Virus record (IMG/VR): IMGVR_UViG_3300044799_000042
Coordinates: 1-46,319 of that record
Origin: a virus
Direction: 5' to 3' (one strand)
Length of the DNA: 46,319 bases
The position numbers were made by a program, and so were the translations under genes. Numbering within the stretch: position 1 is the first letter of the stretch; each line of letters opens with the position of its first letter. The notes below the pieces were generated by a model that was given only the letters and a program-made list of their open reading frames with translations, was not told where the DNA came from and did no database searches. Below are positions 678 through 35,540 of the stretch, one piece after another.

Positions 678-1517
678 GTGGTGAATATTGTAATAAAGGA
701 GATCCTAGCGCAGATCACGCGCCGGTGTCGTTTTCGTGGTCGCGACAGATTCACTAAATGGATTGAAAAGCACTCACCCGATTGGACGGTCGTAGCCGAT
801 GTCATAGCAGAGACAGTTCCGCAACACAGATTGGAACTATATCCCCGCGCCCATATCGACCGAACGGTGTTCTATTTTGGTGCCTATGAACCAGACTATC
901 TCGCGTTTTTCCTTGGCAAACTCCATCCCGGAGACACAGTTTTCGACCTCGGAGCGAATATCGGTGTCTACACCGTGCCGTCTGCTATTACGGTTGGTCC
1001 GAGGGGCCACATCTACTCCTTCGAGGCACACCCCGGCATTGCAGAGAGGCTTCGCCGCAATCTTGCACTGAATGGTCTTGCCAATGTTACTGTCATAGCA
1101 AGGGCGGTCGGGTTGGGTTTTTGTGATCGCAATCTACACATCGCACCCGATCACGGTCAGAACTCCTTGATGTCTCTCGGCGATGAAGTGGGCGTGTTCC
1201 CGGTGGCGACAACGGAACTGGATACCTTTGTCCACGAAAACGCTGTCGGGGCAGTCCACGCCATCAAGATCGATATTGAAGGTGCCGAAGTCGAAGCACT
1301 GAAGGGCGCCTGTGCCACATTGCGAAGAGATCGCCCGTTGATAATGGCGGAGGTAAACTCTGATCGCCTCACGGCTGCGGGAGAGTCGCCCCGCACCCTA
1401 ATCGAGTACCTCCGTAACCTCGGATATGAAGTTCAGGCGTTAGACGGTAACCGGACATACCCTATCACCGATGCGAGGCTGGACCAAGAAGCCAATTGGA
1501 CAGTCTTGGCGACCTAG
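678..1517 (+). CDS. FkbM-family SAM-dependent methyltransferase
   Basis: This 279-residue protein has the FkbM layout. The SAM-binding glycine loop DLGANIGVYT is at residues 90-99, the acidic end of strand 2 (SFEAHP) at 114-119, and the family signature KIDIEGAE at 197-204. FkbM enzymes typically O-methylate sugars or glycan intermediates in the cytoplasm. The start is GTG at 678 or 681, with only a weak ribosome site. A possible TTGAAA (662-667) and TATTGT (686-691) pair overlaps the start, so the promoter and exact start are uncertain. It is the first of three plus-strand genes in a block otherwise made of minus-strand virion genes. A glycosyltransferase and a polysaccharide polymerase or ligase follow, which points to surface glycan modification in the lysogen. 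Confidence 0.85.
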   Translation: MVNIVIKEILAQITRRCRFRGRDRFTKWIEKHSPDWTVVADVIAETVPQHRLELYPRAHIDRTVFYFGAYEPDYLAFFLGKLHPGDTVFDLGANIGVYTVPSAITVGPRGHIYSFEAHPGIAERLRRNLALNGLANVTVIARAVGLGFCDRNLHIAPDHGQNSLMSLGDEVGVFPVATTELDTFVHENAVGAVHAIKIDIEGAEVEALKGACATLRRDRPLIMAEVNSDRLTAAGESPRTLIEYLRNLGYEVQALDGNRTYPITDARLDQEANWTVLAT

Positions 1518-1638
1518 TTACGCCTTAACTACCCGAACTGTCCAAGCACTTGGCGCCAGTCAAAACCGAAATCCCGCCCGACTATCGAATCGGGTATGAT
1601 GGTAGGCGGAGGCGGTACTGACGACGAACCCTCATATC

Positions 1639-2787
1639 TTGTTCATACCTTCCTCGTATCCAAGCACCACAAGTCCGTTCGCGGGTGTGTTCTTTCGGGA
1701 TCAAACCTTGGCCCTCCGCAAAGCGGGGTTCAAGGTGGGCGTTGTCTATCCAGAATCCCGCAGTCTGAGGACGTTTCGCATCAATGCCTTGCATGAACAG
1801 CACTTCCAGTTCCAATCGGAGGCCGATGCCGGAGTGCCCACGTTCCGGCGTCTCGGTTGGAGATTGCCAGTACAACGTTTGTGGAAACTCCTTTGGGTGT
1901 CTCTTTGCCTTGATCTCGTGAGAAGATATATCTCTACTCACGGCAAACCCGACGTAATCCACGCCCACGACGTCCTCTGGGGTGGTTGGGCGGCGCACGA
2001 AGTTGCTGCGGAATTGGGCATCCCATACGTCGTCACAGAACACTCATCGGCCCACATGAGGGGACTCATACGGTCGTGGCAGATGCCCTATATCAAGAAA
2101 ACCCTTGTCGAATCGGATGCCGCAATCGCGGTGAGCCGTGCCCTTCGTGACCGATTGATGCGGTACTGCCCCGGAAGAGACATACACGTGGTCGGCAACG
2201 TGGTTGACACCGCATTCTTCGGCCTTGCGCCCCAAAACCGCGGTCACTCTGAATTCACCTTTCTCGCGATTGCCGCACTCAACGAGAACAAGGGCATCGA
2301 TGTACTGATTAGAGCTTTCGCGCAAGCATTCAGCCACTTGGATGGTGTTCGACTGGTCATCGGAGGAGATGGCCCCGCACGGAGCGGTTTGGAACTCCTC
2401 ACGTTGGATCTAGGTTTGAGTGACCGTGTGAAGTTCCTCGGCATGTTGTCCAGGGAAAGTGTCCGCGATACCCTATGGGAAGGTGACACCCTCGTTCTTG
2501 CCAGCCACATTGAAACCTTTGGTGTAATCCTGATAGAAGCGATGTCAACCGGCCTTCCGGTTATCGCCACCAGTTGTGGTGGACCGGAAGATTTTGTGTT
2601 GCCTCATGTCGGTTCGCTGGTGCCGCCAGGTGATGTCAACGGTCTTTCTTTAGCGTTGATAGCGGCCGTAGAGAACCCTGGGCGGTTTGATCGTCAGACG
2701 GTGCGCAACTATGTTCAAGAGAACTTCAGCGAGAACGCCGTGGTAGAAAAACTCGCTGAGGTCTACCGCAAGGTGAGCCATGTCTAA
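1639..2787 (+). CDS. GT4-family glycosyltransferase
   Basis: This GT-B fold glycosyltransferase has an N-terminal acceptor domain (FIPSSYPST, HAHDVLWGG, VVTEHSS) and a C-terminal nucleotide-sugar domain. The GT4 E-x7-E motif is at E292 and E300 in ETFGVILIEAMSTG, preceded by IGGDGP. It should add a sugar to a lipid-linked glycan on the inner face of the membrane. The given start is TTG at 1639. The reading frame extends upstream as TTNPHILFIPS, which restores the missing first beta strand. A GGAGG site at 1608-1612 sits five bases before an in-frame CTG at 1618, so translation may begin there. Only about 120 bases separate it from the FkbM gene. It overlaps the next gene by 8 bp, so the two are probably translationally coupled. 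Confidence 0.85.
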   Translation: MFIPSSYPSTTSPFAGVFFRDQTLALRKAGFKVGVVYPESRSLRTFRINALHEQHFQFQSEADAGVPTFRRLGWRLPVQRLWKLLWVSLCLDLVRRYISTHGKPDVIHAHDVLWGGWAAHEVAAELGIPYVVTEHSSAHMRGLIRSWQMPYIKKTLVESDAAIAVSRALRDRLMRYCPGRDIHVVGNVVDTAFFGLAPQNRGHSEFTFLAIAALNENKGIDVLIRAFAQAFSHLDGVRLVIGGDGPARSGLELLTLDLGLSDRVKFLGMLSRESVRDTLWEGDTLVLASHIETFGVILIEAMSTGLPVIATSCGGPEDFVLPHVGSLVPPGDVNGLSLALIAAVENPGRFDRQTVRNYVQENFSENAVVEKLAEVYRKVSHV

Positions 2788-4066
2788 ACTCACATCGTTG
2801 GTGATTATCGCCATCCCCATCACCGCGAGCCTCGGCCCACACCTCATGCCCATAGGGTTATTCGGGGTGAATGTCTTCGGGTACAGGTTACTGACCGTCG
2901 CCCTTTTCTGCCTGACCGTTATCTCATCGGTTGTCCTTGGGGGAAAACTCTTCGTCGGCAACCGTCTGTCGCGGTACTACCTCGCGCTCATGGCGTTCTG
3001 GCTCGTCTACGGAACCGCCTCCCTCTTATGGACGCCCGACAGACCTGCGGGGATCAGGGAACTACTGAGTGTTGGCGTAGGCTTGGTGATTCATCTCGTT
3101 CTTCTAGGTCTGGTTCGAGATTCCCGCGAATGTGCGCTCACGGTTGCGTGGGGCTGGGCGTGGGCCGTCCTGGGTAGCGTTGTCCTTGCCGCATGGGAGA
3201 TCAGGACGGGCAACCACCTGTCGGGGTACTATGTTGAACACGCCCAAAGACTCCCTACCGGCCTAGCTATCGCCACCTTCGGCAATCCAGAGGGTCTATC
3301 CGCTTTTGCGGTTTTGGCCTTCCCGTTTCTGGTCTGGCTCGTTCTTACCTGTCGGGGGACAAAGAGGATATTTGCTTCCGTCTTGGCATTCGTGGGGACG
3401 CCTGCACTCCTGGTTGTATCAGGAGGCATGTTGTCCTTTTTGGGATTCAGTCTGGAGATTGTCGTCCTGCTCCTCCTCTGTTTTCGCAGGCGTAGCGTCA
3501 TCTCGCTTCTTGTTCCGGCACTACTCGTAACTTCGGTAGTTCTCGCATCCTTTGTTGCGGTTGGTGAAACACCCCTATTCTCCAAAATGGAGTCGCGCCT
3601 AGGGTTGGGACTACAGAACAGCGAATCCATCCTTGTCCGACTCCGCCTGACCTGGAGTGGACTTACCTTTCTCGTTCAATCCTTCGGGTTCGGCATTGGT
3701 GCGGGCGGTTTTGAACGCTCAATAGAACAACGCGCTGTCTTCAACACCAACAACCTGACTAATCCTCACAACTTCTGGATAGAAGTCCTGTCCCAGTATG
3801 GTCTTCCCGTTTTCGTACCCCTCTTTGCCTGGTTTGTTAGCGTGGTTCGGATGGCCTTGCGCCTTCGGAGGAAGGCTAGAACTTCTTCCCCTGTCTGGTC
3901 CCTGTCTACCACGATCCTCATCGCCTTGGTCGGATATGTGCCCGCAGCCGCAGAGGGTAGTTCCTTTGTGGATTCGTCGATCAACTTTGTGTTTCTTGCG
4001 TCCATTTGCGTACTCGTGGGCACAGCAACCGCAATGGCCAGATCACCCGAGGGTTCACCTGGATGA
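2780..4066 (+). CDS. O-antigen ligase/polymerase-like (Wzy_C) membrane protein
   Basis: This 428-residue protein has about ten to twelve hydrophobic segments. A larger non-membrane loop near residues 270-340 ends in NPHNFWIEVLSQYGL, the conserved region of the Wzy_C (O-antigen ligase and polymerase) superfamily. Members sit in the inner membrane and either join polysaccharide to a lipid anchor (WaaL) or polymerise repeat units (Wzy). Sequence alone cannot separate the two. The ATG overlaps the end of the glycosyltransferase gene and follows AAGGTG. Phages such as Pseudomonas D3 encode alternative O-antigen polymerases that change host serotype and block superinfection. A similar role is inferred here. 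The gene ends seven bases short of a tiny minus-strand ORF. Confidence 0.85.
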   Translation: MSKLTSLVIIAIPITASLGPHLMPIGLFGVNVFGYRLLTVALFCLTVISSVVLGGKLFVGNRLSRYYLALMAFWLVYGTASLLWTPDRPAGIRELLSVGVGLVIHLVLLGLVRDSRECALTVAWGWAWAVLGSVVLAAWEIRTGNHLSGYYVEHAQRLPTGLAIATFGNPEGLSAFAVLAFPFLVWLVLTCRGTKRIFASVLAFVGTPALLVVSGGMLSFLGFSLEIVVLLLLCFRRRSVISLLVPALLVTSVVLASFVAVGETPLFSKMESRLGLGLQNSESILVRLRLTWSGLTFLVQSFGFGIGAGGFERSIEQRAVFNTNNLTNPHNFWIEVLSQYGLPVFVPLFAWFVSVVRMALRLRRKARTSSPVWSLSTTILIALVGYVPAAAEGSSFVDSSINFVFLASICVLVGTATAMARSPEGSPG

Positions 4067-14042: not shown

Positions 14043-14249
14043 CTACTTCTTTCGGGCCTTGACGGTTCTCTTACTCGGCTTGCGGGGTTTCTTCTTGGAT
14101 ACGCCGCCCTCGCGCTTCTTCATGCGCTGGAATGTGCCCATGATATATTGCCAGTCTCCACCGTGTCCGTTCTCGGCAGCTATCTTTTTCGCTTCGGACC
14201 ACAACCGTTCATCTCGCTTACTCTTAACAACACTAACCGGCAACGGCAC
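14043..14249 (-). CDS. Small basic head-associated protein
   Basis: This protein of about 68 residues contains RLWSEAKKIAAENGH and DWQYIMGTFQRMKK, a pattern I associate with short proteins next to phage portal genes, and ends in a run of Lys and Arg. The start is GTG at 14249 or, with better spacing from AAGGAGG, TTG at 14243. It overlaps the end of the portal gene by 17 bp, implying coupling. The function is unknown. Its basic tail suggests nucleic-acid contact. Confidence 0.6.
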   Translation of the reverse strand: MPLPVSVVKSKRDERLWSEAKKIAAENGHGGDWQYIMGTFQRMKKREGGVSKKKPRKPSKRTVKARKK

Positions 14250-16116
14250 CGCCTCCTTGTGGCTGCGCCCCCTGCGCCTGTTGGAACAACTGCATGACCG
14301 CCTGCGTCCGCGCCTCCGGGCTAGGCAGGGCGTTAATCTGCTGCACTATCTCGGGCGGCAACGACTGCACGAACTGGGCCAACGCCGCGCCCTGGCCGCC
14401 TTGTGGCGTGCCGGGTTGTCCTGCGCCGGTCGTCTGCGCCATCATGCGCTGCAACGTGTCCTGCTTCTTAGGGAAGTCGGGCAGCATGTCGTAGTATCCT
14501 TGCAGGTCGATAGCCTTCCTTGCGAACATCTCGCTCCCCATCTGGAAGAGGAACGACTCGCTCATGGACAAGGATGCGCCAACGTCCACCTTCGCGTTGA
14601 AGTACACCCGGCGCGACTCGCCGGGAGTCTCCGTCCACGCACCATCTACCAGTTTGCGCGGCTTCATCGCCGCCAGTTTAGACGGATTGAACATGAACGA
14701 CTCGACTCCGCCCTCTCCCCGTTTCGTCCACTCGCGATCCGTGGTCACGAACTCGATGAGGTGTTCCACCCACAATTCGATGAGTTCGCGGATACCCTGA
14801 TGCAGGGTGTCTACCCTATCGGTGAGTCCCTTCATCGCTTCTTCGCGGAGGGCCAAGGTCTGCGTGGCCGTCCTGATCGCAGTGGTGGCGCGTCCCTGCG
14901 TCACGTCCCACTGTTTGGTGATGCGGTCAGCGTCTATCATCTTGGCCTCGCGGTAGGCCATGACCTGCGGGTTAGGGCCAGGTCCCTGTATGTGCGCTAT
15001 GGCCTCGCTAACGGGTCCCTTGACGGGTATAAGCAGTTCCGGTTCGCCCGTCAGGGTGTTCTCGGGGTCTTTTATCTTGCCGTGTTGGTACGCGGTCTGC
15101 CCCAGGCCACTCATCTTTATGGCGATGATGAAGTCCTGGTCAAATTTGTTGATGATGTCCTGTATGCCGTCGCGTTTGCCCTCTTCGCCAACGAGGGACT
15201 GCAACTCGCTCCTGCCCCACAGCCTCTTGTCCTTCTGGACGTAGGGGATAAGCACGACCGGGTATCTGCCGTGCTTGTAGAAGCCGTTCTTCTTGCTCTC
15301 GGGGTTGTCGCGTGAGTCCTTCAACAGCACTTCGCCAGCATACCAGGCCACCTGTAACTTATCGTCGTCGTCCTTGTACCAGCGTTCATGCACGTTCACG
15401 CGCTCGCGCTGACCCGCAACCGTGGTCTCGGTGTCGTAGGTATCGGTGTCGCTCGAAGTGTCGGCGACAAGGAGTTCCTCCAACTCGGCCTTGGTGAACC
15501 TGCACAGGGGATCGCGTCCCTTGTCGAAGTATGAGGACGCCCAACGTTTGGTCTGGTTCGCAACGAACTCCATGAACTCAGCCCTCTGTATCTCCCAAGG
15601 GTTAGTGATGTTGGGGTCGGGGAAGAAACATCCGGGATGCACGACGAACAGGTCAAGGTCGCCATCACCATTGTTCTTCTGCGGGTTCCAGGGAGACTTG
15701 AACACGCAGGTGCCAAGTTTCGGCCTGATCCACTCGAACTCACCCAACTTGCGGTGGAAGTCCAGCGCGTCGATGTAGTAGGCCGTTATGTCCGTCATCT
15801 TGGCGGCTTCGTCGGCGAACCCAGGGATGCGCTCCGTCAACGTCGCGGCGATCTTACCCGTCGCGGTGTTGCCGTGAATGGTCTGCAACTTCTCCCAGCA
15901 GATGTTTGTAACCGGCCTGGGTTTCCACTCGTCGCGGGCGATAGGCGTGTCCCACTGGTCATCCTCGACGTACTTGTCATAGCGCGCCCACTTGGTATCC
16001 TCTTCCTCGCGTGCGGACTTGGCGGCTGAATAGTCATCGCGCCACTCGCCCAAGAGTTCCTTCGTCTCTTCGGTACGCACCGCAAGCGCGGTGTCCTTGA
16101 CCTTCTTCGCCGTCAC
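14233..16116 (-). CDS. Portal protein
   Basis: This 627-residue protein begins MTAKKVKDTALAVRTEETKE. The GTG at 16116 follows GGGGAGATGAACC. It overlaps the terminase gene by 4 bp, the usual terminase-portal order. The first 100 residues are helical and charged, followed by PVTNICWEKLQTIHGN and FEWIRPKLGTCVFKSPWNP, the wing-like parts of P22-type portals. Residues around 120-140 carry DLFVVHPGCFFPDPN. The C-terminal 60 residues are Gln, Gly and Ala rich. It forms the ring through which DNA enters and leaves the head. Length and lack of a fused head-morphogenesis domain fit podoviral portals. Confidence 0.8.
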   Translation of the reverse strand: MTAKKVKDTALAVRTEETKELLGEWRDDYSAAKSAREEEDTKWARYDKYVEDDQWDTPIARDEWKPRPVTNICWEKLQTIHGNTATGKIAATLTERIPGFADEAAKMTDITAYYIDALDFHRKLGEFEWIRPKLGTCVFKSPWNPQKNNGDGDLDLFVVHPGCFFPDPNITNPWEIQRAEFMEFVANQTKRWASSYFDKGRDPLCRFTKAELEELLVADTSSDTDTYDTETTVAGQRERVNVHERWYKDDDDKLQVAWYAGEVLLKDSRDNPESKKNGFYKHGRYPVVLIPYVQKDKRLWGRSELQSLVGEEGKRDGIQDIINKFDQDFIIAIKMSGLGQTAYQHGKIKDPENTLTGEPELLIPVKGPVSEAIAHIQGPGPNPQVMAYREAKMIDADRITKQWDVTQGRATTAIRTATQTLALREEAMKGLTDRVDTLHQGIRELIELWVEHLIEFVTTDREWTKRGEGGVESFMFNPSKLAAMKPRKLVDGAWTETPGESRRVYFNAKVDVGASLSMSESFLFQMGSEMFARKAIDLQGYYDMLPDFPKKQDTLQRMMAQTTGAGQPGTPQGGQGAALAQFVQSLPPEIVQQINALPSPEARTQAVMQLFQQAQGAQPQGGGAVAG

Positions 16117-17834
16117 GGTTCATCTCCCCATTCCTCGCGCTCGCGTTTCTTCCTCGCGTCCTCGGCCTTCGACGGGTGAACCCATCCTGGCTTGCCGAAA
16201 GGCACGTTGCTCTTCGCCTCGGCGGTCGCCTTATGCGGCGCGGGTATGTCAAGTTCACTGGTCGCGTGTACCGTCGCGGCAATCGCACCCGCCATCACCA
16301 CATCGTCCCACTTGCCCTTGACCGCACCCATCCTGCCTTTGTCGTCCCTCACGAAGGAAAGCGCCTCCTCGATGAGCCGCCTGGATTTCGTCTTGAGCGT
16401 CTTGTCCCTGAACATCGCGCCCAGATGTCCTATAGCTAACGGTTTGGTGGCCTCGGTCGTCAGCCACCCTAACCGTTGCTGTTCCTTCTCGCTCTCACGG
16501 CCTAGCACGGGACTGCGCCACAAATTGGGGTATGACAGGTGCTTCAGCCTCGTGATGGTGGTCAAACCGTGGTTATTGGCCTCGGGAGCCACCAAAGCGT
16601 CGTTGTACCAGTAACCCAGGTTCGCCAGTTCGTCGCCGAAGAGGTCGGCGTCGATGTGCCCGTGCCACAGGGCGGCGTGCTCCAAAGTGGTGCGGTCGAG
16701 GACGAAACCCGCGCTGAAGTCGCCGTGTTCCAAACCTTCCGCAACGTCGCCGCCAATGGCGTACTCGTGACCCGGCACAGGAACCTGCCACACTTCGAGG
16801 TAACCTTTAGCATCCGGGATGAACGATTTACCTTCGAGATAACCCTTGTCGCCGGGCGCACACTCCCCGAGGTACTCGCGCAGCGCGGCCACATTGAACA
16901 CCGGGCGTCCCGGCACGAGAAAGCGACCGTACTGCCTCGCGTCGCGCTCACCCTCGTCCATCGTGGCTTCGAGTCGCGCCTTTTCGTCGTCGGAGAGGTA
17001 CGGGTTATCGTCCCAGGAAGCGTTCAGGCACACGACTTCGGGGTCGCGGCGTTCAGGCGGCTTCAGGTCGTTGTCCACCACCATGCCCACAACGAAGGTC
17101 ATACCCTTGAGCGGGGTCATGGCGGCTATGATGCTGCCGCGCACGTCGAACACCCGCATGGCGCACTCCTGATGCACGTCCTCGGGCGGTTCCTCGTCGT
17201 AGGCGATAAGGTGCTGGCTGGTGCCCTGGAACTTCTCGCGCCCCTGGTCGTAGGACTTCCAACCTATCTCCGTGCCGTTCTTTAGGTGGAGTAGGTCCAG
17301 CACGTCCTTGTCGCGGTATGTCGCGTCAGCCACCTCGCGCTTCGGAATCCAGCCCCCGATGAAGGTCTTGCAGTCGCCCACGATCTCGCGCTGCACCACG
17401 TCGCGCTGTACCTCAAAGGTCTCGCTGACTACCCAGATCCGCGCCGGTTGCGGTACGGATGACGCCAGTTCACGGTATCCCGCCACGATGTCGGCCACAG
17501 CCGCTTCGGTGGCGTGTGCGGCAAACCAGTCGCGCAACTTAGCCACCGATACCATGTCCGCAAGTCGCCGGTAGACCCGCAGCAGGTTCCAAGGCCAGTC
17601 CTCCATGTAAGGCAGGGCGCATTTGCCTAAACCAAACAACGTAACGAAGGTTGACAGGCCAACGGTCTTGCCGGTGCGGTTCCCGGCGATCACCCAGCGA
17701 CTACGCCGCTTGTCGAAGTGGAATGCCACCTGCAACGGCGTGGGCGCGTAGAACCTGAGCCTCTCCTCGCGCTGCCTGCGCTCAATCTCCAAGCCGCCGT
17801 CCTGGACTACCTGCGCGTCAGTCGAGACGTTCAT
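16113..17834 (-). CDS. terL: Terminase large subunit
   Basis: This 573-residue DNA-packaging motor starts ATG at 17834. Upstream in-frame codons lie in the overlap with the previous gene and look spurious. Walker A is AGNRTGKT (residues 50-57), Walker B is LIAYDEE (about 209-215), followed by a coupling segment (AAMTPLKGM). The RNaseH-like nuclease domain begins at GGDVAEG (D363 of the acidic triad) and includes KWDDVVMAGAIA near 520. The ATPase translocates DNA into the procapsid and the nuclease cuts it. It overlaps the upstream gene by 17 bp and the portal by 4 bp. No classical small subunit is adjacent. The DUF5681 gene at 20811 is the best candidate. Confidence 0.9.
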   Translation of the reverse strand: MNVSTDAQVVQDGGLEIERRQREERLRFYAPTPLQVAFHFDKRRSRWVIAGNRTGKTVGLSTFVTLFGLGKCALPYMEDWPWNLLRVYRRLADMVSVAKLRDWFAAHATEAAVADIVAGYRELASSVPQPARIWVVSETFEVQRDVVQREIVGDCKTFIGGWIPKREVADATYRDKDVLDLLHLKNGTEIGWKSYDQGREKFQGTSQHLIAYDEEPPEDVHQECAMRVFDVRGSIIAAMTPLKGMTFVVGMVVDNDLKPPERRDPEVVCLNASWDDNPYLSDDEKARLEATMDEGERDARQYGRFLVPGRPVFNVAALREYLGECAPGDKGYLEGKSFIPDAKGYLEVWQVPVPGHEYAIGGDVAEGLEHGDFSAGFVLDRTTLEHAALWHGHIDADLFGDELANLGYWYNDALVAPEANNHGLTTITRLKHLSYPNLWRSPVLGRESEKEQQRLGWLTTEATKPLAIGHLGAMFRDKTLKTKSRRLIEEALSFVRDDKGRMGAVKGKWDDVVMAGAIAATVHATSELDIPAPHKATAEAKSNVPFGKPGWVHPSKAEDARKKREREEWGDEP

Positions 17835-18132
17835 AGAGCACGAAACTGGCGTTGGCAGCGATGAACAGCCTGTCGTCAACCTTCATGCAGCACGGGCCTA
17901 TGCCGCGCTTGCGGTAGGCGAGGAACAGGTTCAAGGCCCGCGCCTTGTTCTCGGTGATGTCGTCGCGCACCTCGTAGGCGTCAACGTCGCCCACCGTGTA
18001 CCGCCACAACTTGCCACACAAGGAACACCTGTCGTTGAAGGTGTGCGCCTTCCTCGGCATGGTGAGCGGCGCGGGTTTCTCGTGGACTATGATGAGCGGA
18101 CCTCGCCTTTCGAGGGTCACGCCTTTGGACAT
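17818..18132 (-). CDS. Small zinc-binding protein upstream of terminase
   Basis: This 104-residue protein starts MSKGVTLERRGPL, with GGAGGTG four bases before the ATG at 18132. Cysteines CSLC near residue 36 and CC near 81 form a plausible metal site. The function is unknown. It is the first gene below a terminator-like hairpin (18149-18185) and is translationally coupled to the terminase, so it opens the late unit. Confidence 0.65.
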   Translation of the reverse strand: MSKGVTLERRGPLIIVHEKPAPLTMPRKAHTFNDRCSLCGKLWRYTVGDVDAYEVRDDITENKARALNLFLAYRKRGIGPCCMKVDDRLFIAANASFVLYERLD

Positions 18133-21161: not shown

Positions 21162-21371
21162 CTACCTCGCGCACAGGCCAGCGCAGTATCGCCTCGCGCT
21201 GATGCTGTGGTCCTCGTAGAACGCTGCTGCCATCGCTCTGTACTTGGCTGCTACCTCTTCGCGCTGAAACTCCACGATGACGCGCGTACCCTCTATCCTC
21301 GCGGCATAGTCGCGCCTAGGCCATATCTCACGCATGTCTCGCAACCACGCCCTGTATCCTTGTCGCGTCAC
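21162..21371 (-). CDS. Small hypothetical protein (69 aa)
   Basis: The start overlaps the stop of the metallophosphoesterase gene by 4 bp. The sequence MTRQGYRAWLRDMREIWPRR is strongly basic and helical and ends RRYCAGLCAR. No family is recognised. Coupling with its neighbours suggests a shared early function. Confidence 0.55.
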   Translation of the reverse strand: MTRQGYRAWLRDMREIWPRRDYAARIEGTRVIVEFQREEVAAKYRAMAAAFYEDHSISARRYCAGLCAR

Positions 21372-22408
21372 GCTACCCCTCCTCGCACGTTTGCCCTCGC
21401 GTAGTTCAAGGCCTCGACGCCAGCACGGAGATCCATGTATCCCTCCACGCGGTGCTCGTTGGGCCAGAGGATTATCACGGCCACGGTAGGTATCCCAGCG
21501 TATCCCCCCGCCCGCTGCCCGAAGTCGTCGCCCACCTTGTAGCCGCCAGGACGTATCAGCAACATGCGTTTGCCCGCCTTGTAGTAGCGCGCCAGGGCTG
21601 GCTTGTGCCTGTGGGCCAACGCCGCAAAGTCAACCTGGCCGTATTCCTCCATCATGTTCCGCGCCGGGTTCAGTGGATTGTACTTGCTCTCGCCAGGATA
21701 CTTGTGGCGCACGTGGCCCCTGTATGACTGGTCGCCAAGATTCAGCGTCAGTGTGCCGCCGTGCCACAGGTTCAACGCCTGTGCGTCCTCAGCCAACGTC
21801 GCCAGGAAATCCTTGCCTGTGCGCTCGACAGTCCAGTGATCGTGACAACCGTCCACCAGCGCAAGCCACTTCCCCGCCGTCTTACGCATGTGCCACCGCA
21901 CTACTTCGTCCTGCATGCCAGGTTGCGTGATAGCCTCGAACATGCCGCCGGACGGCGCACCCTGGATGAAGTTATCCCGGTAATCGCCCAGTCCGACAGT
22001 GTAGAGACCATCCGTGGCGAGAATCGTTTCCGTGTCGCGCTTGAAGGCGTGGTAGTCAACACCCACGGCCCCGATGTGCCAGTCAGCCCAGAACGCGACG
22101 CCCACGGGTTTGTCGTCCTCCAGGGTGATAGTCGCGTCCACCTGGCGCGTGTCGAGGGCTTGCTGCGCTTCTTGCAGGTCTATCATGCAGTCAAAGAAGT
22201 GCTCAATGTCCGTTTCGCCGTACTTCTTGATGTCCTCGAAGGTTATGCGCTGCTTGGTGATCTGCTGCTTCTGCTCCCGCCTCCGACACACGCTCCGTAT
22301 CTGTTCGGGGTCCAGGACTACGCCGTGCTTGTCGAGCATCAGCCGCGCTATTTCGGGATAGATTTTGCCCTCCTCGCGTAACTTTACGGCATCATCTTGC
22401 CAGGTCAT
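21368..22408 (-). CDS. Metallophosphoesterase with N-terminal HTH-like region
   Basis: This 346-residue protein has the calcineurin-like metallophosphoesterase motifs in order: ADWHIG (D109, H111), GLGDYRDN (D142), GCHDHW (H189), GHVRHKY (H232) and ALAHRHKP (H266, H268). These bind two metal ions and hydrolyse phosphoesters, often DNA ends (SbcD/Mre11-like) or nucleotides. Residues 1-45 (DDAVKLREEGKIYPEIARLM) resemble a helix-turn-helix of the kind found in terminase small subunits. A DNA-processing role is therefore plausible. It overlaps both neighbours by 4 bp. Confidence 0.8.
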   Translation of the reverse strand: MTWQDDAVKLREEGKIYPEIARLMLDKHGVVLDPEQIRSVCRRREQKQQITKQRITFEDIKKYGETDIEHFFDCMIDLQEAQQALDTRQVDATITLEDDKPVGVAFWADWHIGAVGVDYHAFKRDTETILATDGLYTVGLGDYRDNFIQGAPSGGMFEAITQPGMQDEVVRWHMRKTAGKWLALVDGCHDHWTVERTGKDFLATLAEDAQALNLWHGGTLTLNLGDQSYRGHVRHKYPGESKYNPLNPARNMMEEYGQVDFAALAHRHKPALARYYKAGKRMLLIRPGGYKVGDDFGQRAGGYAGIPTVAVIILWPNEHRVEGYMDLRAGVEALNYARANVRGGVA

Positions 22409-22764
22409 TTAGACCACGCATAGGCGTAGGACTTGATGAACTCCTCGACTTGAGCATCTTGGTCGAACACAGGCATCATCCATCCCTTTGCGTCAGCGAC
22501 CTCTTCCTCCGTGCCGTCCGAACCGCCGGGTAGGCGCCATAGAGCCATACAGGACACAAGCCACTGCCTGTCGTATTCCATCCACTCCTGGTGTTCGTGC
22601 GGGTACATCATGTGCCAAAGGTGTGTCAGGTGCGGGATGAACGGCACACCACCCCAACACAGAACCTTGTCGCCAGCCTCAATCGCATGACGCACGTTGG
22701 CGGCCACGTCTCCAAGGCTGTAGGGTCCGGCAATGTAGATACGGGGTTTCCTCGCTATCATCAT
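22405..22764 (-). CDS. DUF4406/nucleoside deoxyribosyltransferase-like protein
   Basis: This 119-residue protein begins with RIYIAGPYSLGDVAANVRHA (residues 8-27), then a PFIPHLTHLWHMM segment, and ends with LPGGSDGTEEEVADAKGWMM, containing the G-x-x-x-E pattern of this superfamily. Nucleoside 2-deoxyribosyltransferases exchange bases between deoxynucleosides and serve in nucleotide salvage. The phage relatives (DUF4406) are not characterised. The start is ATG at 22764 or 22761, behind GGAGG about 10 bases upstream. It is the first protein gene below the structured RNA region. Confidence 0.7.
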   Translation of the reverse strand: MMIARKPRIYIAGPYSLGDVAANVRHAIEAGDKVLCWGGVPFIPHLTHLWHMMYPHEHQEWMEYDRQWLVSCMALWRLPGGSDGTEEEVADAKGWMMPVFDQDAQVEEFIKSYAYAWSK

Positions 22765-22794
22765 TCAAACGCCAGCCTCCTCTCAGATATAGTT

Positions 22795-23407
22795 GGGCGG
22801 CACCGCTATAGCAGCACCGCCCCTTATCCGTCCCGCCCCGGTACGCTATGCCCAAGCGTGGCAGGCTCTGTTTGTTGGGCGGCAGGAACGCAATCCCGCC
22901 GCCCGCATCGTGGCATCCCGTCGTTGCGCCTTTTCAGGACGCCACCGCATTAACCCAGCCCTCGCCTCTCGGCTTAGCCATGACATTCATGGCAGCATCT
23001 CTCGGTGCGGACTGGTTGCTTGGACGTGGCGAGGAGTTCCGTTGTGCCACCTCGCATTGGGGGCCTCGGCTTGCCGCCGCGCTGTGCGCTAAACCCCCGC
23101 GCTACTCTTACGTCTGCTGCGCTACACGTCCAGGGATCGGGATGACGGGAGGAGGACCGTCACCCCAGGGATTGCGCGTGTCATGCGGGGAAAGCCAGTG
23201 CCTGTCACACGCTCGGATGTGTGCCGTTGCCACGCGCAAACTCGCTCCGCTAGTTCCTCCTCACGATTTGGTGGAGCCGGTGGGATTCTCACCCACGTGT
23301 TCCCGCCTTGTCAGCGGGCGTATCTGGTTGACCAGCGGCCCCAGAAATCAAATTGCGCGCTGGTTGCTGCCGCCCCGTGAAACTGTTTTAAGGCCGCCCG
23401 CGCGCAA
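22795..23407 (-). ncRNA. Candidate large structured noncoding RNA, about 610 nt
   Basis: No plausible protein gene lies here, but the minus strand carries many long complementary pairs. Read 5' to 3', in window coordinates: an 8-bp stem 23400-23407 with 23353-23360; a tRNA-like fold 23269-23342; a 9-bp stem 23231-23239 with 23172-23180 enclosing a hairpin at 23206-23223; a 10-bp hairpin 23139-23166 whose loop matches 23255-23262. An 8-bp stem 23125-23132 with 23021-23028 closes a multibranch domain: GCGAGG/CCTCGC at 23050-23055 with 23029-23034, and an 8-bp stem 23091-23098 with 23059-23066. Further hairpins lie at 22977-22993, 22910-22945, 22877-22904, 22843-22859 and 22795-22822. G-U pairs and GAGA or GAAA loops favour the minus strand. 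GOLLD and ROOL are known phage RNAs of similar size often found near tRNAs. Membership is untested. Confidence 0.75.
23269..23342 (-). ncRNA. CCA-ended tRNA-like structure
   Basis: The minus strand folds as four stems: acceptor GGGGCCG with CGGCTCC (seven pairs, one G-U), a D-like arm CTGG-TCAA-CCAG, an anticodon-like arm CCCGC-TGACAAG-GCGGG, and a T-like arm GTGGG-TGAGAAT-CCCAC, followed by A and an encoded CCA. It departs from a normal tRNA in several ways. No bases separate acceptor and D stems, the D loop has four bases without GG, position 33 is G, and the T loop lacks TTC. It lies near the 5' end of the large structured RNA. It could be a tRNA mimic, a decayed tRNA or a domain of that RNA. 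Confidence 0.65.
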
Positions 23408-23417
23408 ACCTATGTTT

Positions 23418-23648
23418 CTATTCGAGACTCGTTGATAGTTCCTGTTCTCGCAATACATCACGCCTGGCTTGTTGAATAGCTACGCCCAACCAACAACGAT
23501 GACACCTACCATCGGGACAGAATAGGGGCTGGATCAACTTATCTAGAGCACGGAATTCATCATACCGCTCCTTGGGAGTGACATCCAACGGAACGCCGTA
23601 ATAGATACTGACGCCCTCTGGTGCGTAGTCGTTGCGTGGTCTTACCAT
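23418..23648 (-). CDS. Small hypothetical protein (76 aa)
   Basis: The start is ATG at 23648, behind GGGAGGG. A longer in-frame version would run through a terminator hairpin and is rejected. The protein begins MVRPRNDYAPEGVSIYYGVP and contains CPDGRCHRCW, a likely zinc or redox site. It is the first gene after the 23.7-kb terminator and ends just before the structured RNA. The two may share a transcript. No family is recognised. Confidence 0.6.
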   Translation of the reverse strand: MVRPRNDYAPEGVSIYYGVPLDVTPKERYDEFRALDKLIQPLFCPDGRCHRCWLGVAIQQARRDVLREQELSTSLE

Positions 23649-23663
23649 ATAACCCTCCCAACC

Positions 23664-23696
23664 CAAAATAAGAAGGGCGGCTGCTTGAACCGCCCC
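23664..23696 (-). terminator. Terminator below the late-regulator gene
   Basis: On the minus strand AAGGGGCGG and CCGCCCTT form eight pairs around a nine-base loop, followed by CTTATTTTG. A T-rich run on the opposite side makes it possibly bidirectional. It lies between the ArpU-like gene and the 76-residue gene that precedes the structured RNA. Confidence 0.65.
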
Positions 23697-23760
23697 TTGG
23701 GTATTTTCTTCGACAATATCATTATAACGCACTTTAACCCCCATACCCATCGATTTATTA

Positions 23761-24288
23761 TCAATCTTCCAGTGTCGGTGTTTCCGAGGTAAGGCCCATC
23801 TCCCAAGCCACCATCAGCACCAATTTCCGACGCCTTCTAAAGCAAACCGCTTCGGATATGTTCATTTCTAGACAGATTTCTCCCCATGTCCGACACTGAC
23901 GATACCAAAGCCAGTAGAGCTTCCGATACTCTGGCCCCAACCGCTCAAAGGCTCGCTCAATTTGGCTTATCGTCCGCGTCATGTACACTATCGCCTTGTT
24001 GGTCAGGACGGTAATGGCGCGTTCCTCTGTTGGACTTCGCAGCGTATGCTCGGCTCTGGGTGTGACAAAGGAGACGGAACCCAGCCCTTCTATCGAAGCG
24101 CGGAGTTCCGCTAGTTCGCTCTTCGTGTACTCGAAGGAGTAGAGTTCGCCCTCCACATACTTCCAGCGTTCATGGGAGAGTCCGCTTCTCTTGAGACGCA
24201 AGGATTTGGGCGGTCTCTCGTCGCATATCCCATCCTGGGCGGCGCTCTGCTCTGGCGAGGGGCTAGTGCCGCCCATTGGCTGCATCAT
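23761..24288 (-). CDS. ArpU/RinA-like late transcription regulator
   Basis: This 175-residue protein starts MMQPMGGTSPSPEQSAA at 24288, behind GGTGGAG. The C-terminal third (YRKLYWLWYRQCRTWGEICL, then FRRRRKLVLMVAWEMGL) is the sigma-region-4-like helix-turn-helix pattern of ArpU, RinA and DUF722 proteins. These act as late-gene activators in phages of Gram-positive bacteria. The middle contains a charged helix, RTISQIERAFERLGPEYR. As the last regulator before two terminators and the late genes, it is the best candidate for switching on terminase and downstream transcription. Mechanism (activation or antitermination) is not shown. Confidence 0.7.
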   Translation of the reverse strand: MMQPMGGTSPSPEQSAAQDGICDERPPKSLRLKRSGLSHERWKYVEGELYSFEYTKSELAELRASIEGLGSVSFVTPRAEHTLRSPTEERAITVLTNKAIVYMTRTISQIERAFERLGPEYRKLYWLWYRQCRTWGEICLEMNISEAVCFRRRRKLVLMVAWEMGLTSETPTLED

Positions 24289-24475
24289 GTGGACTCCACC
24301 TTCCCCCGCACTTCGTACAGTCGCCGCAGAGTGTGACAATCAGCCAGTCCAGGATGCGGCAGATACGCCCGATACAGACGCCGAAAGGATGCCTCCAAGA
24401 CACACAACGAATCCACAGGTAATCGTCCAGCGCACACCACCAGCCAGATAGCAACTGCACTAGCGCACAGCGCAT
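24263..24475 (-). CDS. Small hydrophobic Cys-rich protein (70 aa)
   Basis: The start is ATG at 24475, with GGTGGAG upstream. The sequence MRCALVQLLSGWWCALDDYL continues with two hydrophobic segments and a late CGDCTKCGG zinc-like knuckle. It overlaps the regulator start by 26 bp. It may be membrane-associated. No family is recognised. Confidence 0.5.
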   Translation of the reverse strand: MRCALVQLLSGWWCALDDYLWIRCVSWRHPFGVCIGRICRILDWLIVTLCGDCTKCGGRWSPHDAANGRH

Positions 24476-33989: not shown

Positions 33990-34280
33990 GTGATGACGGT
34001 GAAGTGGCTGGTTTATCTTGCGCTGGCGGTGTGCCTCCTGCTGGTCATCAGTGTGTTCCTGAACAACATACGGTGGTCATACTACGACAACGGCGTTTAC
34101 TGTGTAGACAAGTGGACCGGCACACGTTACCACTATTCAACCAGTTCGCCAGATAGATTACAACCTCTCCTCGATACAGTCTTGCGCGTGTTCGAGACGG
34201 CGGGCGGTGTTGGTTTGGCGACACTGGCCATAGCGGGCATAATAAACATAGTGGAGGAACATGGCAAGCGGTCACGTTGA
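33990..34280 (+). CDS. Small membrane protein between repressor and integrase
   Basis: This protein of up to 96 residues has an N-terminal membrane helix (WLVYLALAVCLLLVISVFL), a polar segment with a Tyr-rich region, and a second hydrophobic stretch near residues 72-87 (GGVGLATLAIAGIINIV). The start is GTG 33990, ATG 33993 or GTG 33999. It is expressed with the repressor in the lysogen by location and overlaps the integrase gene by 20 bp. A superinfection-exclusion role is a reasonable guess. Confidence 0.55.
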   Translation: MMTVKWLVYLALAVCLLLVISVFLNNIRWSYYDNGVYCVDKWTGTRYHYSTSSPDRLQPLLDTVLRVFETAGGVGLATLAIAGIINIVEEHGKRSR

Positions 34281-35400
34281 ACGCCGCAGCAAGCACGGCT
34301 GGACCCTGGTAATTGACCATGGCCGGTACGTTGACCCGGTGACTCACACAGAAGGGCAGCGCCGGGAGTACCGCGCCATACGTAACTGCACCAAGGCTGA
34401 AGCACTCGCGCAGTTGTACGATGTTCTCTCCGAGATTAACAAGGGTACATACGTCAAACCTTCTACTGTGACGCTGGCTGACTACCTGCACCAGTGGTAC
34501 GACCAGCATTGCGTCCCGCGCCTCGCGCCCAAGACCCTGGAATGCTATCGGCAGGCTATCGCGCACCTCACGCCCATCCTCGGCACAATCGCTCTCGCTA
34601 ACCTCACTCCTCCGCTCGTACAGGCGGCGTACAGCCAACTCCTGGCCCAGGGCGTAGGCAAGCGCAGCGTCCAACTGGCGCACGTCGTCCTCCGCATGGC
34701 GTTGAAGCAGGCGGTCAGGGCTGGCTCGCTCTATCGTAACGCCACGGACGCGGTAACGCCGCCGGGATCGCCGAAGCACGAAATGGTGGCCCTGCGACCC
34801 GACGAGGTGGACACGTTGCTACATGCCGCTCAGGAAAGCGGCATACTCGAATTCGTCATTCTCGCGCTCAGCACCGGCCTCCGCCGCGGCGAACTCCTGG
34901 CCCTACAGTGGCAGGACATAGACTGGCCTAATGCTACTCTAAAGGTGGACAAGACCCTCCAGCGCGTAGAGAAGCGGATACTGGTCAAGCCGCCCAAGAC
35001 GCAGCGCAGCCGCCGCACCGTGCCGCTGGACGAGGAGACGTTGATCCTCCTCCGGCACATGAGAGGGCGCACCACGTCAACCTTCGTGTTCTCGCGGCCT
35101 GACGGCCAGCCGCTGGACCCTTCGACCGTCACGCATCAGTTCAAACGCTTGGCGCGTAAAGCGGGGTTCCCCGCCATGCGCCTGCACGACACGAGGCACA
35201 CCTATGCTACCCTCGCGTTCCTGGCCCACGTCGAACTGCGACTCGTGCAAGACCTCCTCGGTCACGAAGACATCTCCACCACGGCCAACACCTACACCCA
35301 CGTCACCTCGGAAGCGAAAGAGGCCGCCGCAGAAGCCATAGGCAGGATGCTGAGAAGCGGCAAGCGGCATGTGAGCGACGAGTCAGACGCGGGGCGGTAG
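34261..35400 (+). CDS. int: Tyrosine integrase
   Basis: This 379-residue site-specific recombinase has a core-binding SAM-like domain (about 65-160) and a catalytic domain with R208 (STGLRRGE), K246 (KPPKTQRS), H309 and R312 (LHDTRHT), H335 (LLGHED) and nucleophile Y345 (NTYTHVT). It inserts the phage into the host chromosome. The gene ends 30 bp from the attP core. An arm-binding N-terminal part (residues 1-55) looks like those of Gram-positive phage integrases. ATG at 34261 follows GTGGAGGAAC. Confidence 0.9.
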   Translation: MASGHVERRSKHGWTLVIDHGRYVDPVTHTEGQRREYRAIRNCTKAEALAQLYDVLSEINKGTYVKPSTVTLADYLHQWYDQHCVPRLAPKTLECYRQAIAHLTPILGTIALANLTPPLVQAAYSQLLAQGVGKRSVQLAHVVLRMALKQAVRAGSLYRNATDAVTPPGSPKHEMVALRPDEVDTLLHAAQESGILEFVILALSTGLRRGELLALQWQDIDWPNATLKVDKTLQRVEKRILVKPPKTQRSRRTVPLDEETLILLRHMRGRTTSTFVFSRPDGQPLDPSTVTHQFKRLARKAGFPAMRLHDTRHTYATLAFLAHVELRLVQDLLGHEDISTTANTYTHVTSEAKEAAAEAIGRMLRSGKRHVSDESDAGR

Positions 35401-35429: not shown

Positions 35430-35478
35430 TGGTGGAGCCGAAGGGGATCGAACCCACGACCTCCTGAATGCCATTCAG
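35430..35478. other. attP core: 3' part of a tRNA-Ala(GGC)
   Basis: On the minus strand this reads as the anticodon arm, T arm and acceptor end of tRNA-Ala(GGC), with loop ATGGCAT, ending GGCTCCACCA. The 5' half of a tRNA does not follow, so it is a partial copy of the kind phages use to keep a host tRNA intact after insertion. It lies 30 bp after the integrase gene. Confidence 0.85.
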
Positions 35479-35540
35479 AAGGAGGATGGTTCTCCTAGCA
35501 GGCACGATGTTGGCGATACCGCAGAGTAACAGGCTTGAAG

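Follow-up and report, generated by a model that had tools for sequence, protein, structure and literature searches.

Does a gene-free interval just upstream of the DNA-packaging genes of a phage encode a large structured RNA, and if so, of what kind? The interval lies in IMGVR_UViG_3300044799_000042, a 46,319-base virus record (the window, analysed here over its whole length) representing a temperate tailed phage. It is located between an ArpU-like regulator gene and the exonuclease and terminase genes, and all real genes around it are on the minus strand. A preliminary description had proposed that a densely folded, minus-strand RNA occupies this region, and had likened it to the GOLLD and ROOL families. 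The genes and sites that define the setting are as follows.

23761..24339, minus strand: ArpU/sigma-like late transcription regulator, upstream of the locus (phrog_36, 1.6e-16; Sigma70_r4_2 below cut-off)
23418-23648, minus strand: small ORF between the ArpU-like gene and the RNA region
22789..23413, minus strand: likely limits of the whole structured non-coding RNA locus (flat GC, MFE z, hairpin density), its ends closed by weak AUAG/CUAU pairing
22776..22784, minus strand: ribosome site GAGAGGAGG of the next gene, which can pair with the UCCUCCUC loop described below
22405..22764, minus strand: nucleoside 2-deoxyribosyltransferase-like gene, downstream of the RNA (phrog_355, DUF7768)
21368..22408, minus strand: exonuclease-like gene, used for synteny (phrog_7339)
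16113-17879: T4-type terminase
14233-16116: portal
26 to 31 kb: replication and recombination genes
34261-35400: tyrosine integrase

No convincing promoter was found just upstream of the locus, and no terminator was called between its 3' end and the next ribosome site. An intrinsic-terminator-like hairpin (23673-23697, minus strand) follows the ArpU-like gene, upstream of the likely start of the small ORF. Elsewhere in the window, positions 678-4066 (plus strand) hold a methyltransferase-like, a glycosyltransferase-like and a third ORF, oriented opposite to most phage genes and possibly representing surface-modifying cargo or host flank.

Coding potential and folding of the locus

Across 22785-23415, GC content hardly varies with codon position in any of the six frames (about 0.61-0.65 at each position, versus 0.605/0.463/0.71 in the genes of the same phage), and the codon scores of these frames fall below background, excluding a protein-coding reading and bearing out the description of the region as gene-free. 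On the same grounds, a 195-amino-acid plus-strand ORF (22848-23435), for which a simple gene call gave no ribosome site and which lacks both a Pfam match and a coding signal, is spurious.

Folded at full length, the minus strand reaches a z of -3.0, as against -0.8 for the plus strand, and the minus-strand value is the lowest among 148 strand-windows in a survey of the whole record. Because a coding window reaches -2.87, close to the value of the locus, folding energy alone is borderline evidence. Hairpin density is the stronger evidence of structure: the 631-base locus contains four minus-strand hairpins of at least 11 pairs, compared with 16 across the whole 46-kb minus strand, while shuffled sequences average 0.26 hairpins of at least 10 pairs, with three or more in none of 300 shuffles. 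The plus strand of the locus has one long hairpin (10 bp) to the four on the minus strand. Helices of the minus-strand MFE fold (at least six of 8 pairs, with others of 9, 11, 11 and 12) include G-U pairs that become A-C when read on the plus strand. The long stems and the minus-strand orientation proposed for this RNA are thus both upheld, and together with the GC profile and the tRNA-like content, rightly noted in the preliminary description and set out below, they support a large, structured, non-coding RNA. Its parts, from 5' to 3', are listed here.

23353..23407, minus strand: 5' hairpin UUGCGCGC...GCGCGCAA, preceding the tRNA-like structure (8 bp; pair probability 0.94 on average)
23269..23342, minus strand: tRNA-like structure, 74 nt (tmRNA and tRNA models, z -3.5)
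23255..23262, minus strand: Shine-Dalgarno-like sequence GAGGAGGA, 6 nt past the CCA terminus
23172..23239, minus strand: helix UUGCGCGUG / CACGCGCAA with inner hairpins (9 bp, P 0.73; local z only -1.3)
23138..23167, minus strand: 11-bp hairpin with the anti-Shine-Dalgarno loop UCCUCCUC at 23149-23156
23021..23132, minus strand: multibranch domain closed by UGGACGUG/CACGUCCA (isolated-domain MFE, z -1.8)
22831..23142, minus strand: 3' domain with an alternative long-range closing helix, UCCCG..CCCUGG.ACGU / GCGU.CCGGGG.CGGGA (MFE/MEA, P about 0.6)
22910..22945, minus strand: 11-bp hairpin GUGGCGUCCUG / CGGGAUGCCAC (P 0.99, z -4.1)
22877..22904, minus strand: 11-bp hairpin GGGCGGCGGGA / UCCUGCCGCCC (P 1.00, z -5.5)
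22795..22822, minus strand: 12-bp 3'-terminal hairpin GGGCGGUGCUGC / GCGGUGCCGCCC (P 1.00, z -5.0)

The multibranch domain competes with the closing helix of 22831-23142. When the 126-nt domain is folded by itself, the stem originally described as closing it, TGGACGTG/CACGTCCA, is present, but it meets a rival pairing in the fold of the whole RNA (P about 0.6). The 3'-terminal hairpin is not followed by a U-run and was not called as a terminator. Within the RNA, a 15-base direct repeat (23354-23368 and 23006-23020, 87% alike) has AGCAACCAG common to both copies, and an ACCAGC beside the 5' hairpin is a potential competitor for the D-arm strand GCUGGU of the tRNA-like structure.

The tRNA-like structure and the anti-Shine-Dalgarno loop

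The 5' part of the tRNA-like structure (23342-23269, minus strand) reads GGGGCCG-CUGG-UCAA-CCAG-AUACG-CCCGC-UGACAAG-GCGGG, followed after GCGGG by the 3' part, AACAC-GUGGG-UGAGAAU-CCCAC-CGGCUCC-ACCA. All four arms are fully paired: a perfect 7-bp acceptor with G3.U70, A73 and an encoded CCA, a D-arm reduced to CUGG-UCAA-CCAG, an anticodon-like arm (CCCGC-UGACAAG-GCGGG), and a perfect T-arm (GUGGG-UGAGAAU-CCCAC). The tmRNA model aligns with it end to end (25.7 bits, E 3.1e-10 over the whole record, which falls below the 47-bit cut-off of that model), a better score than that of the tRNA model (13.7 bits, versus a 29-bit cut-off). Default ARAGORN, which missed this structure, called neither a tRNA gene nor a tmRNA in the record, and relaxed settings yielded only implausible tmRNA calls. 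The combination of acceptor, T-arm and CCA occurs once in the record, nowhere in 965 kb of other phage DNA, and once in 60 shuffles of the record; with all four arms included, it occurs in none of the shuffles.

The acceptor carries all four of the bacterial alanine acceptor-end identity elements listed in PMC9976931 (A73, G2-C71, G3.U70 and G4-C69); the remaining alanine element, G20, is absent. The structure resembles tRNA-Ala (RF00005) in these elements and in its 3' acceptor strand, which is that of a tRNA-Ala fragment elsewhere in the record, but differs from it in having no U33, TUC or D-loop GG, as well as in its score with the tRNA model. Because it is without U33, a TUC loop and a normal D-arm, a decoding tRNA was rejected. 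The UCA of the D-loop is complementary to the UGA of the T-loop, and judging from the sequence, this pairing might replace the normal elbow contact. A CCA following the acceptor/T-stem, as here, is what E. coli RNase P requires (quoted in PMC5723415).

With the tRNA-like domain of tmRNA (RF00023), the phage structure has in common an acceptor of the form GGGG.../...CUCCACCA, G3.U70, A73, the CCA, a T-arm of 5+7 and a reduced D-arm. In contrast to the tmRNA domain, which comprises the two RNA ends around an mRNA-like part and pseudoknots, the phage halves are contiguous within 74 nt through a short anticodon-like hairpin, with no mRNA-like part or tag; the T-loop, UGAGAAU, also differs. A further comparison is provided by the leader of E. 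coli thrS, which controls the synthetase's own gene via anticodon-arm mimics, whereas the phage RNA mimics the acceptor side and lies ahead of a phage operon. Like the leader proposed for the phage, that of thrS combines a tRNA-like structure with proposed control by a synthetase, and it is a precedent for tRNA mimicry in a leader (PMC5723415).

The tRNA-Ala fragment, the 3' part of a tRNA-Ala(GGC) gene, lies at 35430-35497 (minus strand), 30 bases past the integrase stop. It is likely to be the phage attachment site (attP), and the phage probably integrates into a host tRNA-Ala. Because the tRNA-like structure has the same final 11 bases and the same T-stem 5' strand as this fragment, it probably descends from, or copies, a host tRNA-Ala. 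That positions 23269-23342 are themselves an attachment-site relic was excluded, since the 5' acceptor strand is present too, and paired.

The second distinctive part is the loop at 23149-23156. UCCUCCUC is perfectly complementary to GAGGAGGA (23262-23255) and mostly complementary to GAGGAGG (22782-22776) in the ribosome site of the next gene, with duplex energies of -15.4 and -14.4 kcal/mol, respectively; a pseudoknot between 23149-23156 and 23255-23262 is possible. No other hairpin on the 46-kb minus strand has a loop that is complementary over its full length to a sequence close by; of 500 shuffled versions of the region, 6 contain such a hairpin. Any anti-Shine-Dalgarno sequence can pair with any strong ribosome site, which weighs against reading the loop as a switch.

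The same gene interval in related phages

Searches of phages and plasmids returned no DNA homologue of the RNA locus, nor did the full records of terminase and exonuclease relatives. An exact-pattern search of viral contigs likewise found none, its sole match (L110) having the appearance of coding sequence; a 78% match in L030 was rejected because it falls in a glycine-rich coding stretch. Searches with the terminase, exonuclease and Sak4 proteins recovered distant protein relatives only (best about 56% identity; 33-44% for the exonuclease in the nearer set). A covariance model of the tRNA-like structure found nothing convincing beyond itself.

Phages encoding relatives of the exonuclease have a common gene order: ArpU-like regulator (or a gene replacing it), gap, exonuclease. 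Structured gaps occur at this place in L058 (z -5.6), L056 (-5.4), L065 (-4.5) and L080 (-3.8), and gaps with weaker values in CBP1 (about -3), L076 (-2.8), L068 (-2.7), L055 (-2.1) and L082 (-0.3); ordinary terminators form the ends of several of these gaps and would by themselves lower the folding energy and inflate z. No sequence common to the gaps and the phage record was detected, and the CBP1 and L055 gaps are the only two that resemble each other. L054, the closest full-length relative to keep this gene order, has no RNA at this place, and carries what reads as a deoxyribosyltransferase-like gene.

The gap RNAs of Caldibacillus phage CBP1 (L051:7839-7982) and an IMG/VR phage (L055:5802-5955), about 64% alike, are hairpin-and-terminator RNAs between the ArpU-like gene and the exonuclease, with a common AGTAGG motif and no Rfam match; a covariance model built from them has no match in the 46-kb record. 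The 391-nt gap of L058 (5590-5980) holds a DUF3800-VII RNA (RF02967, L058:5662-5751) and a terminator-like hairpin at its end; this RNA resembles the phage locus in being a structured RNA in the same gene interval, and Rfam DUF3800 models have no match in the 46-kb record. The 361-nt gap of L056 (5613-5973) has no Rfam match, and a Type-P5 twister ribozyme lies downstream of the exonuclease gene in L066 (6665-6717). Diverse phage RNAs, most of them undescribed, seem to occur repeatedly between the ArpU-like gene and the exonuclease, and the support that this recurrence lends to function is one of position only.

Leader, free RNA or passenger

Our best guess, a tentative one held at less than even confidence, is that the locus forms the structured non-coding leader of the late (packaging) operon, equipped with a tRNA-like processing or synthetase site and a loop switch. 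The leader would be transcribed together with the late genes; RNase P could recognise the tRNA-like structure through its acceptor, T-arm and CCA, and a cut at G1 would leave a protected 5' end. Alanyl-tRNA synthetase may bind or charge the same structure. The UCCUCCUC loop would have two alternative partners, GAGGAGGA and the downstream ribosome site, such that the state of the 5' part would control expression of the packaging operon. What the sequence gives is the anatomy, from which we infer processing, charging and switching.

A stand-alone, trans-acting RNA similar to GOLLD or ROOL (abundant, late, perhaps multimeric like the 14-mer cage of GOLLD, with a tRNA or tRNA-like passenger) is nearly as good an explanation, though doubtful in itself. 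Like GOLLD (RF02032) and ROOL (RF03087), the locus is a large structured RNA in a phage, with tRNA-like content, and it resembles them in size and in its multibranch fold with capped hairpins; the syntenic RNAs of L058, L068 and L055 end in terminators, which fits separate transcripts. GOLLD linkers sometimes hold phage tRNAs, and both families are found near tRNA islands (PMC12286853). The setting is that of GOLLD to the extent that a phage is present (integrase, terminase, portal), but the record has no ARAGORN tRNA gene and only the one tRNA-like structure, and the 3' end has no terminator. Membership in either family, as first suggested, was not borne out: neither model has a match at E up to 10 (the control genomes are also ROOL-free), and an Rfam search of the region gave nothing at or above a family cut-off.

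Equally doubtful is the view that the stretch has no selected RNA function, consisting of a captured, non-functional host tRNA-Ala gene and hairpin-rich intergenic DNA that is decaying or carried along. In favour of such a degenerate tRNA-Ala copy, the acceptor 3' strand (CGGCUCCACCA) and T-stem 5' strand match the fragment beside the integrase, three features of a real tRNA (U33, TUC loop and D-arm) have been lost, the searches gave no homologue, and the energy z is no better than that of some coding windows. Four fully paired arms with a G3.U70 acceptor wobble are, however, unlike a decayed gene, the hairpin excess was seen in none of 300 shuffles, and phage genomes seldom retain 640 idle bases. 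An element acting at the DNA level, for instance in packaging (pac/cos) or replication, with palindromes that fold as RNA only incidentally, would suit the position upstream of the terminase genes, and hairpins are inverted repeats in DNA too. We consider it highly improbable, as the stems rely on minus-strand G-U pairs, folding of the plus strand barely exceeds that of shuffles, with a single 10-bp hairpin to the four of the minus strand, and the tRNA-like structure would have no evident purpose in DNA.

We know of no function for GOLLD, ROOL and similar large phage RNAs. The region matches no known RNA family and no relative of it was detected, so it may represent a new phage RNA, best regarded as a candidate and not as a new class. 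Such a class, unlikely on present evidence, would combine three elements, an alanine-chargeable tRNA-like domain, an anti-Shine-Dalgarno switch and a large folded body, through which the packaging operon would read host tRNA processing or alanylation. An alanine-type acceptor end next to packaging genes would offer a handle for simple assays of alanylation and RNase P cutting.
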